Shown here: in pieces, positions 37,426-44,149 of the stretch
How the letters are laid out: each line of letters starts with the position of its first letter
Numbering within the stretch: the first letter of the stretch is position 1
Source of the DNA: Candidatus Zixiibacteriota bacterium
Lineage (GTDB): Bacteria; Zixibacteria; MSB-5A5; UBA10806
DNA length: 44,149 bases
Assembly (NCBI GenBank): GCA_020348065.1
Contig: CP070742.1
Coordinates: forward strand, 3,322,345-3,366,493
Reading direction: 5' to 3'
Program-made: the position numbers and the translations under genes
Notes under the pieces: generated by a model
Told to the model about the DNA's origin: nothing
Database searches by the model: none
Seen by the model: the letters and a program-made list of their open reading frames with translations, nothing else

Positions 37426-38946
37426 CTATTTTAAAAACAGCATTTTTTTAGAAAACGAATCTCCGTCCGTATTGATTCGATAAAAATAAACGCCCGAAGT
37501 CTGATCCGAGGCGTCCCAGCGGACAACGTGCTTTCCTGAATTAAGCGGTTCGTTTAGAAGATCAGCAACCCTCTCGCCGAGGACATTGAAAACGTCGACC
37601 GAAACGTTAGAATTTTTACGGAGATAAAATTCAATATTTGTCTCGGTATTAAAGGGATTTGGATAATTTTGCAAAAGTTTGAATTTGCCGGGAATAAAAT
37701 CGACCATTTCATCTTCCACATCTACCAGGCCGGAATTTATTTTCATCATGAAGGCGTCAAAGATGTAATCTAATGAGAAGGCGGATCCGGCGATAACGAA
37801 GTTACCGTCATCTGTCTGCCTCACGCAATAGCCTATGTCAGCATCATTAATACTCATCGTACCGAACCACTGCAGATCTCCATTGTCGTCTGTCTTTACA
37901 ACATAGATGTCGCAACCGCCCTGCATAGGCGTTTCCATCAGCCCGGCGGCAATAAACCCGCCATCCGAGATTTCTCTGACGGAATTCGCGCAGTCAGATA
38001 CGCTTTCCCCGTAGGTTCTTTCCCACTGAACTGTCCCGTCCGACGACGTTTTTACCAGATACAAATCGTGATGATAGGGCGCTATGAGAATAGTTTTATA
38101 ACCTGAGACAATATAGCCGCCATCACTCGTCTGATCCACCGAGTACCCGGCATCGTAACCGTCGCCTCCGTAGGTACGATTCCATTCGACATTGCCACCC
38201 GAATCCATTTTTATCAGCCAGACGTCGAAGGCAGTTCCGATTCCGCCTCTGACACCGCAAATAATATAGCCGCCGTCCGAGGTCTGGAGGACGGATTTGG
38301 CATGATCTGCAAATAAAGGCGTGCCGTATTCCCGTGACCACATTACTTCGCCGACGCTGTCTGTCTTGACTACATAAACATCGGTATGATACTCGTCCGG
38401 TTCCGTTTTATAACCGGCCGCAATATACCCGCCGTCGGAAGTTTGAGTGATTTCCGCGAACGATTCGCCGCCGGAATCGCCATATTTCCTCGTCCAGACC
38501 GTGTCTCCTGAAGCGTCCGTTTTGATGATATACCCGTCAGATGTGGATCTGTCCCCGTCTGTAAAAAAACCGCATACGATGAAGCCGCTATCAGACGTGG
38601 GCTTAACACAGAAACCAGCATCGTTGTCCGAGTCTCCATACGTCCTTGCCCATTCGGTATTTCCGTCGCCGTCGGTTTTTATCAGCAATACATCGTTATG
38701 CACTTGCCCATACGATTTCCTACATCCGGCCAATATAAAACCGGGTAAGTCCGGATAATTGCCCTGCCCGACTTGCTCAACCCAATAAACGCAGTTGAAT
38801 TCGCCTTCTCCAAATATCTGCATCCAGATGATGTTCGGATTCTGAGCAGGGAGAATCGGAGCCGCAATAAAGATTATGAAGGAAATAGCCAGAAGATAAT
38901 TTTCGTTAAACATCTTGCGCCCCGCCTTTAGAGTTAATTCCTTCAT
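37426..38946 (-). CDS. Repeat beta-propeller protein with T9SS type A sorting domain (paralogue A)
   Basis: This 506-residue secreted protein has a signal peptide (hydrophobic LLAISFIIFIAAP, ending PAQ), about seven repeats of roughly 50 residues built on the pattern DGGYI-G-(10-15)-D-Y-VKTD--G-W-R-YG, and a C-terminal sorting domain (QNYPNPFNTETNIEFYL ... SGVYFYRINTDG, KKMLFLK). The Trp and Asp spacing suggests a propeller. The start may be ATG 38946 (GGGGAG 10 bases upstream) or ATG 38913, the position conserved with the paralogue at 39060-40568. The two are tandem duplicates with a shared upstream element. Function is unknown. Confidence 0.85.
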   Translation of the reverse strand: MKELTLKAGRKMFNENYLLAISFIIFIAAPILPAQNPNIIWMQIFGEGEFNCVYWVEQVGQGNYPDLPGFILAGCRKSYGQVHNDVLLIKTDGDGNTEWARTYGDSDNDAGFCVKPTSDSGFIVCGFFTDGDRSTSDGYIIKTDASGDTVWTRKYGDSGGESFAEITQTSDGGYIAAGYKTEPDEYHTDVYVVKTDSVGEVMWSREYGTPLFADHAKSVLQTSDGGYIICGVRGGIGTAFDVWLIKMDSGGNVEWNRTYGGDGYDAGYSVDQTSDGGYIVSGYKTILIAPYHHDLYLVKTSSDGTVQWERTYGESVSDCANSVREISDGGFIAAGLMETPMQGGCDIYVVKTDDNGDLQWFGTMSINDADIGYCVRQTDDGNFVIAGSAFSLDYIFDAFMMKINSGLVDVEDEMVDFIPGKFKLLQNYPNPFNTETNIEFYLRKNSNVSVDVFNVLGERVADLLNEPLNSGKHVVRWDASDQTSGVYFYRINTDGDSFSKKMLFLK

Positions 38947-39059: not shown

Positions 39060-40568
39060 CTACCTCAACAATATCATTTTCGTTGTCTCGGAAGACCGAT
39101 CCGTTTCGATTTTATAGAAGTAATTGCCGGATTTTAAGTCACCAGGGTTCCATACAACCTGATGACGGCCGGCCGGTCTATAACCCCTAGAGAGAGTTTC
39201 GACCTCACGACCGAGAAGATCATAGATAATTATGGTAACATCAGATGGCTCATGCAGGTTATAACGTATTTTGGTGGTTGAATTGAATGGATTGGGATAA
39301 TTTTGTTGCGTTATAAACGTTTGCGGGGCGACCTCACTCAGTTCTTCCTCTATACCGACTTGCCCCGGCCTTATTTTCATCAGAAAAGCGTCATGATACG
39401 CGCCGCCGAAATCTTCCGTATGTCCCGTCACAACGTAATTTCCGTCGAAAACCTGCCTGATGCACTCTCCGATATCGTCGTCATGTCCGCCGAAAATATC
39501 ATGCCATTCCAGGTTGCCGGAGTCATCCGTTTTTACGACATAAATATCGTTTCCTTCCTGGCCGAAAGATGTGGAGTGCCCTGTCATAATATAGCCGCCG
39601 TCCACGGTTTGCCTGACAGATAATGCGCGATCGCTTCTAGCTCCGCCATAAGTCCGCTCCCATTCGACAAAACCCTCATCGGAGATTTTGATCAAATAAA
39701 ATTCGCAGTGGCAGTTTCTGTCAGACACTGTTTTATACCCTGCGATTACATAACCGCCGTCGCTGGCTCGAGCCACCGAAAAGCCTTTATCATAGCGATC
39801 GCCGCCGTAATGCCGGGTCCATTCAATATCTCCGCCGGCATTCACTTTTGTAAGCTGAACGTCGCAGTCGACACCACCCGGCGACTCCATCCATCCGCAA
39901 AAAACAAAACCGCCGTCGTTTGACGGCTGTATAGATACGGCGCGATCAATAGAATCCGCCGGTCCATGCTCCCGGGACCAGAGAAGCTGACCGGTTGTAT
40001 TTGTTCTAACCAAGTATATATCGGTATGATAGCCGTCGGATTCAGCTATATAACCGACGGCTATATAGCCGCCATCAGATAATTGGCAGACTTCATAAAA
40101 CCGCGCGCTGCGGGAACCGCCATATTTCTTTGTCCAGACCGTATCGCCGTAAGCATCGGTTTTTAGCATATAGGCGTCAGACTTATAGGCATCTATATCC
40201 CGGGTAGCCCCACACACGATATACCCGCCATCCATCGTCGGCTTGACGCAATATCCTATGTCAGGACCATCACCGCCGTAAATCCGCTCCCATTCGACAA
40301 ATCCATCCGCGTCGGTTTTTATCAAATAGATATCCTCATAACCCATTACGAACTGTTGAGTAGATCCAACCATGATGAAACCTGGTGCCCCGCGATCATC
40401 CCGCCTCCCCGCCTCCTCAACCCATTTCGCGCCAGCCCAACCCTCCCCGCTGTAGGTTTGAAACCAGATAATACTCGGATTCTGGGCGCTGAGGTTAAAA
40501 GCCGTCATAATAATTATGAAGCAAATAACCGGAAAATGATTCTTAATATGCATTTTACACCCCGCCAT
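39060..40568 (-). CDS. Repeat beta-propeller protein with T9SS type A sorting domain (paralogue B)
   Basis: This protein of about 502 residues has the same plan as its neighbour: signal peptide (hydrophobic FPVICFIIIMTAF, ending LSAQ), about seven repeats such as DGGYIAVGYIAESDGYHTD and DGGYVIAGYKTVSD with YLVRTNTTGQLLWSREHG strands, and a sorting domain (QQNYPNPFNSTTKIRYNLHEP ... SGNYFYKIETD, KMILLR). The sorting domain resembles that of the beta-helix gene more than that of paralogue A. ATG 40568 and ATG 40553 are both possible starts; the frame also has a TTG at 40577. Tandem duplication is evident from the repeats and the shared upstream DNA. Confidence 0.85.
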   Translation of the reverse strand: MAGCKMHIKNHFPVICFIIIMTAFNLSAQNPSIIWFQTYSGEGWAGAKWVEEAGRRDDRGAPGFIMVGSTQQFVMGYEDIYLIKTDADGFVEWERIYGGDGPDIGYCVKPTMDGGYIVCGATRDIDAYKSDAYMLKTDAYGDTVWTKKYGGSRSARFYEVCQLSDGGYIAVGYIAESDGYHTDIYLVRTNTTGQLLWSREHGPADSIDRAVSIQPSNDGGFVFCGWMESPGGVDCDVQLTKVNAGGDIEWTRHYGGDRYDKGFSVARASDGGYVIAGYKTVSDRNCHCEFYLIKISDEGFVEWERTYGGARSDRALSVRQTVDGGYIMTGHSTSFGQEGNDIYVVKTDDSGNLEWHDIFGGHDDDIGECIRQVFDGNYVVTGHTEDFGGAYHDAFLMKIRPGQVGIEEELSEVAPQTFITQQNYPNPFNSTTKIRYNLHEPSDVTIIIYDLLGREVETLSRGYRPAGRHQVVWNPGDLKSGNYFYKIETDRSSETTKMILLR

Positions 40569-40634
40569 CAAATACAATACCTCGCCACGCTATCTCTCCC
40601 CGTAGATGTTTTCCTATACTAAAATACAGAAATT

Positions 40635-41055: not shown

Positions 41056-42744
41056 ATGCCCGGGACAGCTTCAAACGGCTTGAGTCCTTCATTTGATTTT
41101 TTGCACCTGGATAAAAAGCATTATAGGGATTTCAGACGACGTAATTTCATTCGTCTTATCTTTACCTATCTGGCTCCCCTTATATTAATATCGGTTTATT
41201 TTTACTTCCAGCACGGTGTAATGATATCCGAGGGCAGGCAATTAAGGTTGAAGGCCATCGCCGAGAACCAGTCTAACATGTTCGATCTTTTTCTCACCGA
41301 AAGGCTTAATAATCTTCGTAATATTGTAAACGATCCGAGACTGGAGTCGCGGCCGACCCAGGTTCAGATTGACTCTTATCTGGGTAGATTGAAAAACAGT
41401 AGCGAGACCTTTGTCGATCTCGGTTATTTCGACGAAACTGGCGTTCAAAAAATATATAGCGGTCCATATCCATCGCTTGAAAAGATAGATTACAGCAACG
41501 AATCATGGTATATATCGCTTATTGACGGCAACGATGACTTTATAATCACCGATATCTATCTCGGTTTCAGGCAAAAACCTCATTTCACAATAGCGGTCCG
41601 AAAAAATACGAACGATGAGTTCACCGTCCTGAGGGCAACCCTGGATCCCGGGAAAATTTACGAATACATAAGATCTCTGGAGGGCGCCAACGAGGTTATT
41701 TCCTACATAGTAAACCAGGAGGGTTACTATCAGATTGTTACATCTCACCTGGGAACGGCGCTGGAAACCTCCTCGATTGTCCCCCCTCGTGATGTCAGAC
41801 TGGGAATAGAAAATATCGAACTTAACGATAAGAGTATTACTTTCGCTTACTCCTGGCTTCAGAATGCTGATTGGGCCTTGATTGTGCAGCAGGCCGATGA
41901 TGCGGTCTCGTTTTTTTCAGGTTCGGGAATCAGGATAATAAGCGTTTCCGCCATTTTCATTATCATATCGCTTATAATCATCTGTGTTAGAACGCAAAAA
42001 CTTGTTGAAATACAAATTGAATCCGATAAAACCAAGGCACAACTCGAGCATGCCGCCAAGCTGGCTTCCGTGGGAGAACTTGCGGCCGGAATAGCGCACG
42101 AGATAAACAATCCCCTGGCCGCCATCAACGAAGAAGCCGGGTTAATGAAAGACCTGTTAAGCCCGGAATACGGGAATCCTGTCCAATGCAAAGAAATAAT
42201 TCCCCATCTTGATTCCATCCATGACCTGGTCTTCAGATGCAGAGATATCACCCGAAAACTGATGGGATTCGTGCGGAAAACCGATTTCGACATTAAAAAA
42301 CATAACATCAATAAGCTCATTGACGAGGTCGTGGATGGTTTATTCTCTCATGAAATGATGGTCAGCAATATCGAGCTGGTAAAAAATTACTCGAATGATA
42401 TTCCCGAATTAAAGACCGATGGCCATCAACTGCAGCAGGTATTTTTAAATGTAATAAATAACGCCGTTGACGCCATTGAAAACAGAAGAGGCACGATAAC
42501 AATTTCAACTTCGAAAAACGAGAAATCGATAGAAATAAAAATCTCTGATTCCGGAAAAGGGATTGAGCCGGATTCTATGGGAAAAATATTTATGCCCTTC
42601 TACACTACGAAAGAGGTGGGTAAAGGCACCGGGCTCGGTTTATCCGTCAGCTATGGTATTATAAAAAACCTCGGCGGGAAGATAGAGGTGAAAAGCGAAA
42701 TGGGTAAGGGAACTACATTTACCCTGAAGTTGCCGTTAATCTGA
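41056..42744 (+). CDS. Membrane sensor histidine kinase with extracytoplasmic Cache-like domain
   Basis: This 562-residue kinase has a membrane helix (about 31-51), a periplasmic sensor region (52-290) with Cache-style segments (SSETFVDLGYFDETGVQKIYSGPYP, NESWYISLIDGNDDFIITDIYLG, HFTIAVRK), a second helix (about 293-313) and a short coiled linker. The H-box is LASVGELAAGIAHEINNPLA with phospho-accepting H348. Catalytic boxes follow: N (QQVFLNVINNAVDAIE), G1 (DSGKGIEPDS), F and G2 (FMPFYTTKEVGKGTGLGLS). No HAMP or PAS domain is obvious. Cache domains bind small organic ligands. It starts a three-gene operon with a CBS protein and a receiver-transporter fusion, its likely phosphorylation target. 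Confidence 0.92.
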   Translation: MPGTASNGLSPSFDFLHLDKKHYRDFRRRNFIRLIFTYLAPLILISVYFYFQHGVMISEGRQLRLKAIAENQSNMFDLFLTERLNNLRNIVNDPRLESRPTQVQIDSYLGRLKNSSETFVDLGYFDETGVQKIYSGPYPSLEKIDYSNESWYISLIDGNDDFIITDIYLGFRQKPHFTIAVRKNTNDEFTVLRATLDPGKIYEYIRSLEGANEVISYIVNQEGYYQIVTSHLGTALETSSIVPPRDVRLGIENIELNDKSITFAYSWLQNADWALIVQQADDAVSFFSGSGIRIISVSAIFIIISLIIICVRTQKLVEIQIESDKTKAQLEHAAKLASVGELAAGIAHEINNPLAAINEEAGLMKDLLSPEYGNPVQCKEIIPHLDSIHDLVFRCRDITRKLMGFVRKTDFDIKKHNINKLIDEVVDGLFSHEMMVSNIELVKNYSNDIPELKTDGHQLQQVFLNVINNAVDAIENRRGTITISTSKNEKSIEIKISDSGKGIEPDSMGKIFMPFYTTKEVGKGTGLGLSVSYGIIKNLGGKIEVKSEMGKGTTFTLKLPLI

Positions 42745-42764: not shown

Positions 42765-43313
42765 ATGGAAGAAAAAAAAGTAAAGGATTTGATGATAAAG
42801 CTGGACGATTACGCGGTTGTGGATATTGACGCCACCCTTCGCGACGCGATTCTGGCTCTTGAAGAGGCTCAAAAAAAAATAGAACCGGACCGCCAACCCC
42901 ACAGGGCGGTTCTGGTTGTGAATAAAAACAAGCGGATTGTCGGAAAAGTGGGGCATCTCGCTTTTTTGAAAGCCCTGGAGCCGAAATACGAGGTTATAAA
43001 GGATATTGACAAACTTTCGCGAGCCGGAGTAAGTGATGAATTCATCTCCACCATGATGGACCATTACAAGTTATTCAGGGCCGATTTCCAGGACTTGTGC
43101 CGCAAGGCTATGGGGATTAAAGTGATGGACGTTATGCATTCCGTGGGAGAAAGCGTCGACGAGGAAGCTCCTCTTGCGGAAGCGTTAAATCAATTAATCG
43201 TTCAACAGACATTATCAATACTGGTAACAAGAGACGGTAAGGTTGTGGGTTTATTAAGACTGTCGGATATCTTTGATGAGATTTCCGGCTGTATTAAAAA
43301 TATATCCGATTAA
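42765..43313 (+). CDS. CBS-domain pair protein
   Basis: This 182-residue cytoplasmic protein has two CBS motifs: residues 5-70 (KVKDLMIKLDDYAVVDIDATLRDAI ... HRAVLVVNKNKRIVGKVGHLAFLKAL) and 127-180 (IKVMDVMHSVGESVDEEAPLAEAL ... LSILVTRDGKVVGLLRLSDIFDEI), separated by a helical segment of about 50 residues. CBS pairs bind adenine nucleotides and often gate transporters or channels. It lies 20 bases after the kinase gene and 25 bases before the receiver-transporter gene, so it may give that transporter an energy-status input. Direct binding is inference. Confidence 0.88.
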   Translation: MEEKKVKDLMIKLDDYAVVDIDATLRDAILALEEAQKKIEPDRQPHRAVLVVNKNKRIVGKVGHLAFLKALEPKYEVIKDIDKLSRAGVSDEFISTMMDHYKLFRADFQDLCRKAMGIKVMDVMHSVGESVDEEAPLAEALNQLIVQQTLSILVTRDGKVVGLLRLSDIFDEISGCIKNISD

Positions 43314-43338: not shown

Positions 43339-44149
43339 ATGCCCAGAGTATTGCTTGTGGACGACGAGGATTCCTTCAGGCTCCCTTTAACCCGAAGGCT
43401 TAATGTCAGGCATATCGATACAATTGAAGTTGGCAGCGGTGAAGATGCTATAAAACTTGTCAGAAGCGATTCTGATATAGATATAGTGGTTCTGGATCTC
43501 AAAATGCCGGGGATGAACGGCGAACAGGTTTTACAGGAATTAAAAAATTTCCGGCCCGAAATACAGGTCATAATGTTGACCGGGCACGGATCTTTGAATT
43601 CGGCGGTTAAAACCGGCAAACTCGACGCTTACTCCTATCTTGAAAAACCATGTGATCTTGAAAAACTGATCGGCGAAATAGAGTCGGCCCGAGAGGAAAA
43701 AATATATGCCCTGACAAGACATGAAATTCCCCACGTCGAAAAAGGATCTCTCTGGAAGTGGCTGGTCGGGACCCATAACTCAAGACCGGGAATTATCCTG
43801 CTGGGAATAATACTGTTCGCCTCCATTTTACTTCTCCCGACTCCGGACCGGCTATATAATCTGATATCATCAAAAAAAGCCGGCGCTCTCGCGGATAAAA
43901 ATATGGGATATGCGGATTACAGGAAAATGAAGGCGGGCGATTCGATCGCGTCATATTACGGAGCCAAATATAAAATAGGTAAGAATATAAAAGATGAAGA
44001 CGGCAAAAACTCATTTCAGCCATATGGCCCGGAAAAAATGGCGACAAAAGCGAAAGTGATGCTCGGCATCCTTGTCATCGCGGCCCTGTTCTGGGCGTCA
44101 GGAGCTGTCCCGGTTGGAATTACGGCTTTATTGGTAGGCGTTATAATGT
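43339..44149 (+). CDS. CheY-like receiver domain fused to an SLC13/DASS-type transporter (3' truncated)
   Basis: The frame from ATG 43339 (GAAGAGG 8 bases upstream) stays open to the window edge, giving 270 residues so far. Residues 1-120 are a receiver domain with the full active site: acidic D8/D9, phospho-accepting D53 in VVLDLKMPG, T81 in MLTGHG and K103 in YLEKP. After a linker comes a membrane helix (about 150-168: GIILLGIILFASILLLPTPD), a soluble segment (170-237), then AKVMLGILVIAALFWASGAVPVGITALLVGVIM, which follows the first conserved helices of SLC13/DASS anion symporters. The kinase upstream would phosphorylate D53, so a transporter, not DNA binding, appears to be the output. The transported anion and the rest of the protein are unseen. 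Confidence 0.82.
   Translation, partial: MPRVLLVDDEDSFRLPLTRRLNVRHIDTIEVGSGEDAIKLVRSDSDIDIVVLDLKMPGMNGEQVLQELKNFRPEIQVIMLTGHGSLNSAVKTGKLDAYSYLEKPCDLEKLIGEIESAREEKIYALTRHEIPHVEKGSLWKWLVGTHNSRPGIILLGIILFASILLLPTPDRLYNLISSKKAGALADKNMGYADYRKMKAGDSIASYYGAKYKIGKNIKDEDGKNSFQPYGPEKMATKAKVMLGILVIAALFWASGAVPVGITALLVGVIM

Follow-up and report, generated by a model that had tools for sequence, protein, structure and literature searches.

The receiver-transporter gene and its neighbourhood

The whole stretch of DNA analysed here (the window; 44,149 nucleotides, G000:C1:3322345-3366493, from a genome represented as one pseudo-contig with 100-N gaps) belongs to a member of Candidatus Zixiibacteriota and ends inside a gene that joins a response-regulator receiver to a membrane transporter of the DASS (SLC13) type. 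The gene occupies a fixed place in an operon whose order is Cache histidine kinase, CBS-pair protein, receiver-DASS fusion and stand-alone receiver. Within the window the fusion appears as an open frame of 270 amino acids on the forward strand (43339..44148), its 3' side open at the window end; this is the 5' part (43339..44149, 270 codons) of a protein of 677 amino acids, the remainder of which lies on another contig, from G000:C1:2684023 downwards (locus L004, 9024..7662, minus strand). The frame is cut at 44149 because the assembly has a 100-N scaffold gap at exactly that point. The final 140 bases of the window (44010..44149) have one further copy in the genome, at 100% identity, which forms the very start of the contig carrying the gene remainder (L004 9024..8885, minus strand) and is itself bordered by a gap. 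Exact end overlaps of 140 or 141 bases are most plausibly the traces left by a de Bruijn assembler between neighbouring contigs. When the two contigs are joined through the overlap, the frame remains open and gives a single protein that spans the whole DASS domain (PF00939); in a genome of the same genus (G001) the fusion runs unbroken over the junction (query 1-534, single frame, 78% identity). The exact overlap and the relatives together point to continuity of the window's own gap-split gene.

The original prediction, made from the letters of the window, had proposed a single frame leading from a receiver into the opening part of a transporter of the DASS type, and had named a stop or frameshift just past the window, an unrelated downstream sequence, or the mistaken assembly of two genes as grounds for abandoning it. 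None of these was encountered. The LLLPTPD helix and ALFWASGAVPVGITALL lie in the same frame, the sequence obtained past 44149 matches PF00939, and the genome check rules out an artefact at the window end, where the gap splits the gene and does not create the fusion. Gaps of 100 Ns are also found at L004 1331-1430, 9025-9124 and 12400-12499, and at L003 8495-8594. The contig order of the pseudo-chromosome is wrong, at least at the window end, and in view of this and of the exact 140- or 141-base shared ends, gene neighbourhoods that span gaps are unreliable. The contig at L004 9125-12399 (3,275 bases) begins and ends with the same 141 bases in direct orientation, an exact overlap such as a circular or tandem-repeated element would leave.

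Domain architecture and predicted structure

The receiver (REC; residues 4-114, 43348..43680, forward strand) has the receiver fold by its match to PF00072 (4e-24; 85.4 bits against a gathering score of 30.2) and displays D8, D9, D53, T81 and K103 at their predicted positions, so that the proposal of a complete CheY-like receiver is borne out. Across the fusions, these residues are retained in 59/59 (D8), 57/59 (D9), 58/59 (D53), 58/59 (T81) and 59/59 (K103) sequences, and the full pocket (acidic pair, phospho-Asp, Thr/Ser and Lys) is kept in 56 of 60. Both PF00072 and PF00939 were matched in all 21 members scanned with Pfam. The same scan of 21 members revealed no kinase domain in the fusion protein, the kinase being a separate gene, which sets the family apart from SLC5/STAC-type proteins; nor was an SPX domain matched, the N-terminal domain being PF00072, and the protein is thus not an SPX-DASS carrier of the Pho90 type.

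A cytoplasmic helix and linker of near-constant length (residues 115-149, 43681..43785, forward strand) connect the receiver to the first transmembrane helix. Measured from residue 104 to residue 150, this region is 47 residues long in 56 of 61 sequences, and W141, G144, R149 and P150 are each at least 98% conserved, features that favour mechanical coupling over a loose tether. The helix that follows (RPGIILLGIILFASILLLPTPD; residues 150-171, 43786..43851, forward strand) aligns with TM1 of the unfused DASS relatives L017-L020, L022, L053 and L054 (e.g. L020 RRLSFILLGVTLFTVVYLSPAWPDA, L053 NKMFWLTVGVMLFVTIGFLLPVPQSL) and is helical at residues 150-165 in the structural model. The original prediction had placed the LLLPTPD helix as an additional element ahead of the helix pair that opens the transporter; the shared frame and the DASS start stand, but the separate preceding helix was rejected, since the unfused relatives have the same segment as their canonical TM1. 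By the established topology of DASS carriers, the N-terminal tail is short and cytoplasmic. As TM1 of the fusion is an ordinary DASS TM1, the receiver takes the place of this tail, and the receiver side would be cytoplasmic, as two-component chemistry demands. An enlarged TM1-TM2 loop (residues 172-228, 43852..44022, forward strand) is the least conserved part of the protein, and is predicted to be extracytoplasmic from the cytoplasmic receiver and one membrane crossing. The window then enters TM2 (44023..44149, forward strand), assigned by alignment with VcINDY and by the PF00939 match in the continuation, before the contig end truncates it. Conservation is highest in the transporter core, where 223 of 449 columns reach 90% or above.

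An AF2 model of the orthologue L006, computed from a 21-row alignment (mean pLDDT 81), contains both folds. Foldseek searches with this model recovered the DASS carriers NaS1, NaCT, NaDC3, VcINDY and Pho90, at target TM-scores of 0.65-0.79 for most, as well as receivers at 0.79-0.89.

A non-canonical branch of the DASS family

Membership in the DASS/SLC13 family is evident from the PF00939 (Na_sulph_symp) match of the transporter part (L004 7662-8996; 1.6e-39, 136.6 bits against a cut-off of 27). Scores against TIGR00785, which describes the sodium-coupled DASS subfamily, were 183.4 and 162.2 bits, below its cut-off of 198.6. Alignment with VcINDY shows that the first SNT motif is replaced by SEH, the first SPPN loop by GGRN and the second SNT motif by SDG, invariantly in 59/59 fusions, none of which therefore has the two SNT motifs by which Na+/carboxylate binding is recognised. 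The assignment to SLC13/DASS accordingly holds by profile and fold; its further specification as a sodium-anion symporter engaged in uptake does not follow from them, both SNT motifs being replaced. With these replacements, the DASS domain may have an unusual substrate, or its role may lie in sensing and not in transport. Unfused relatives have SDH/GARN/ADG or SAH/GGRN/SDA at the same positions, and this partial sharing argues for a wider non-canonical DASS clade rather than for loss of transport. No constant catabolic neighbour that might hint at a substrate was seen in the gene neighbourhoods of the fusion loci.

Distribution and origin of the fusion

A survey of genomes for the same fusion, as the original prediction had proposed, established that it is conserved over several phyla. 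Sixty distinct intact fusions were collected from Zixibacteria, Electryonea-type bacteria, Acidobacteriota and Gemmatimonadota. In Candidatus Zixiibacteriota, matches with E up to 1e-100 came from 35 of 132 genomes; 29 genomes contain 32 copies that span all 677 positions without a stop. The fusion is present in 16 of 39 genomes of the phylum of Ca. Electryonea and Tariuqbacter, in 8 of the 297 Acidobacteriota sampled and in 4 of the 298 Gemmatimonadota sampled; an additional record is labelled Phycisphaerales. In a tree of the transporter domain, all fusions fall on one side of a single branch (support 98/94), with unfused relatives outside, which implies a single origin of the fusion, within the sampling, and its retention afterwards. 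Acidobacteriota sequences occur at several places in this tree, suggesting horizontal transfer.

Operon partners

The likely phosphodonor is the sensor histidine kinase of 562 amino acids encoded at 41056..42744 (forward strand), which combines dCache_1 (PF02743, 2.5e-18), HisKA (PF00512, 8.8e-6; at 26.1 bits just below the 26.9 cut-off) and HATPase_c (PF02518, 1.4e-26). A linked homologue lies upstream of 50 of the 54 fusions with enough flanking sequence. Between kinase and fusion, a protein of 182 amino acids (42765..43313, forward strand) with a CBS pair (PF00571, two stretches, 2.7e-13) is a likely nucleotide-sensing partner of the transporter. Homologues of this protein are encoded upstream of 48/57 fusions, and the gene is retained even where the kinase and stand-alone receiver have been lost. 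Two tandem CBS-pair genes are found between kinase and receiver-DASS at L048 (4153-5263), L040, L039 and L076, and none at L055, L056 and L060.

Downstream of the fusion is a stand-alone receiver of 162 amino acids with an intact pocket (RR162), detected at 53 of 58 loci by ORF search and at 55 of 58 with tblastn. The Gemmatimonadota loci L047 and L109 had been candidates for lacking RR162, and were rejected as such when tblastn searches detected it at identities of 64% and 62%; neither locus, therefore, separates the role of RR162 from that of the fused receiver. RR162 occurs wherever the kinase occurs. Scans of representative proteins from the operon recognised no DNA-binding domain, and thus no transcriptional output is encoded among them.

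The same genome contains a paralogous operon (L050 3924-9303; G000:C1 about 1,043.9-1,049.3 kb) encoding a Cache histidine kinase, a REC-REC protein, an unfused DASS protein of 615 amino acids and a REC-CBS protein. It comprises the same four kinds of part, with a DASS protein about 35% identical, and differs in that this DASS has no fused receiver, CBS being fused to a receiver instead. The recurrence of these parts in other covalent combinations is domain-fusion evidence that REC, CBS and DASS form what looks like one functional module. HdrC/HdrB/HdrA-like genes, recognised by eye, lie 3' of the L050 operon, possibly reflecting sulfur or electron-transfer metabolism. Elsewhere in the window, 37426-38946 and 39060-40577 (minus strand) encode tandem paralogous secreted repeat proteins with an apparent Por-type C-terminal sorting signal.

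Integrity of the receiver pocket follows the linked kinase

The kinase adjoins the fusion in 53 of the 60 distinct copies, and in all 53 the D-D-D-T-K pocket is intact. Four copies (L058, L112, L113 and L114) have no linked kinase, although their upstream sequence extends to 5 kb or more, and the pocket is altered in each; in the three others the upstream sequence is too short to judge linkage. L058, L112 and L113, all from one genus, represent a second receiver-DASS copy in which D9 is replaced by Q, and which lacks RR162 and is linked only to CBS. L114 carries the substitutions D9P, D53A and T81S. As the former three are orthologues, and group apart from L114 in the tree, the association rests on two independent events, and its probability by chance from simple counting is 1/395,010 if the four copies are taken as independent or 1/1,485 for two events. 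In genomes G045, G102 and G103 the kinase stays beside their other, intact fusion copy; in G132 the best kinase homologue is 34% identical and lies on another contig. Maintenance of the pocket with the kinase and its decay without it are as predicted for a receiver that is phosphorylated. On this comparative evidence, the fused receiver is very likely to be phosphorylated, in a manner that depends on the kinase.

Discussion

We propose that the phosphorylated receiver sets transport by the DASS-fold domain post-translationally, within a circuit that includes the kinase, the CBS protein and RR162, a reading to which we would assign a probability of about two in three. It is built on the fusion itself, its conservation, the operon, the intact chemistry of the fused receiver, and the loss of the pocket where no kinase is linked; from these we infer co-transcription, phosphotransfer from the linked kinase, an effect on transport, and the parts played by CBS and RR162. 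The protein would be an elevator-type DASS-fold transporter in which a two-component receiver has been put in place of the short N-terminal tail on the cytoplasmic side. A co-transcribed Cache histidine kinase would sense a signal outside the membrane and phosphorylate Asp53 of the fused receiver, and the resulting change, passed through the conserved linker of near-constant length to TM1, would alter the transport cycle, so that transport could be set fast, with no transcriptional step. A cytoplasmic nucleotide or energy signal is probably brought onto the transporter by the CBS-pair protein, and RR162 may also be phosphorylated by this kinase, serving as a phosphate sink or diffusible partner. 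The more general notion of a class of two-component systems with a secondary transporter as encoded output, with Asp phosphorylation gating the elevator, CBS as a second input and no gene-expression step, seems to us slightly better than an even bet. The constant occurrence of RR162 with the kinase weighs against the proposal, in that the principal output could be RR162, with the fused receiver in a secondary role.

That consideration leads to the main rival explanation, an unlikely one in our estimate, under which the protein is a transceptor: DASS would act mainly as a sensor whose substrate occupancy alters the uptake or loss of phosphate by the fused receiver, with feedback to the kinase and to RR162, the latter carrying the output elsewhere. 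The receiver would then report on transport and not control it. Replacement of the SNT motifs in all members and the fixed companionship of RR162 are in keeping with this, and transporter-coupled signalling already exists in SLC5-kinase fusions such as CbrA (PMC7918813). However, neither a DNA-binding nor an enzymatic output was recognised in the operon, the odd motifs extend in part to unfused relatives and so characterise a wider transporter clade, and it is the transporter core that is most conserved. Still less probable is that the receiver leaves transport unchanged and only holds kinase and transporter together or drains phosphate. Stand-alone receivers often act as sinks, and the operon has two receivers per kinase, but a passive tether would have no need of a near-invariant linker length and conserved residues, and a single ancestral fusion has been retained across phyla. 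Wrong joining of two separate genes by assembly or gene calling, which the scaffold gap and misplaced contig at the window end might suggest, is refuted for the family by intact fusions in many independent assemblies, including the unbroken G001 copy, and we give it next to no weight.

Several known systems share single aspects of the receiver-DASS proteins. In the low-affinity phosphate carriers Pho87, Pho90 and Pho91 of yeast (SPX-DASS), a cytoplasmic regulatory domain is likewise N-terminal to a DASS carrier; structures of Pho90 are among the Foldseek matches of the fusion model. Pho87 and Pho90 offer a precedent for the proposed control: they are restrained by their SPX domain, removal of which raises flux up to eightfold (PMC7381174). 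SPX binds inositol pyrophosphates, however, whereas the bacterial fusion has a receiver of the aspartate-phosphorylated type with a linked kinase. In the SLC5-STAC histidine kinases CbrA and CrbS (MxtR), a secondary transporter is also covalently attached to two-component parts (PMC7918813), but there an SLC5 transporter is placed on the kinase, at the input, and the output is transcriptional, in contrast to a DASS transporter on a receiver, at the output side. The lactose transporter LacS resembles the proposed mechanism in that transport is modulated via phosphorylation of a fused, EIIA-like domain (PMC10710835); it belongs to another carrier family and is phosphorylated by HPr of the PTS, not through a two-component receiver. 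Canonical DASS proteins (VcINDY; TIGR00785/PF00939) share the PF00939 match, the fold and the TM1-TM2 start, and differ from the fusion, which has replaced SNT motifs, an enlarged TM1-TM2 loop, an N-terminal receiver and a TIGR00785 score below cut-off. The combination of a receiver with a transporter as its output is in none of SPX-DASS, LacS or CbrA/CrbS.

Receivers usually end in DNA-binding, enzymatic or protein-binding domains, or in no output domain, and a covalent secondary transporter would be a new class of output, represented by a conserved family in several phyla and not by a one-off. A literature search, confined to open-access papers, found no description of a receiver-transporter fusion, a result that does not prove priority. 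The terms response regulator, receiver and two-component do not occur in a review from 2023 on how bacterial transporters are modulated (PMC10710835). The fusion also offers a fixed system for asking by what means an elevator transporter could be controlled through phosphorylation, which is a question shared with the SPX-DASS carriers, and the naturally occurring decay of the phospho-pocket in copies with no linked kinase supplies a ready prediction. Receiver-DASS proteins are a real and conserved variant on the two-component theme, whose function is suggested by their architecture and genomic company. If the proposal is true, phosphorylation may directly switch a nutrient gate, with no detour through gene expression.
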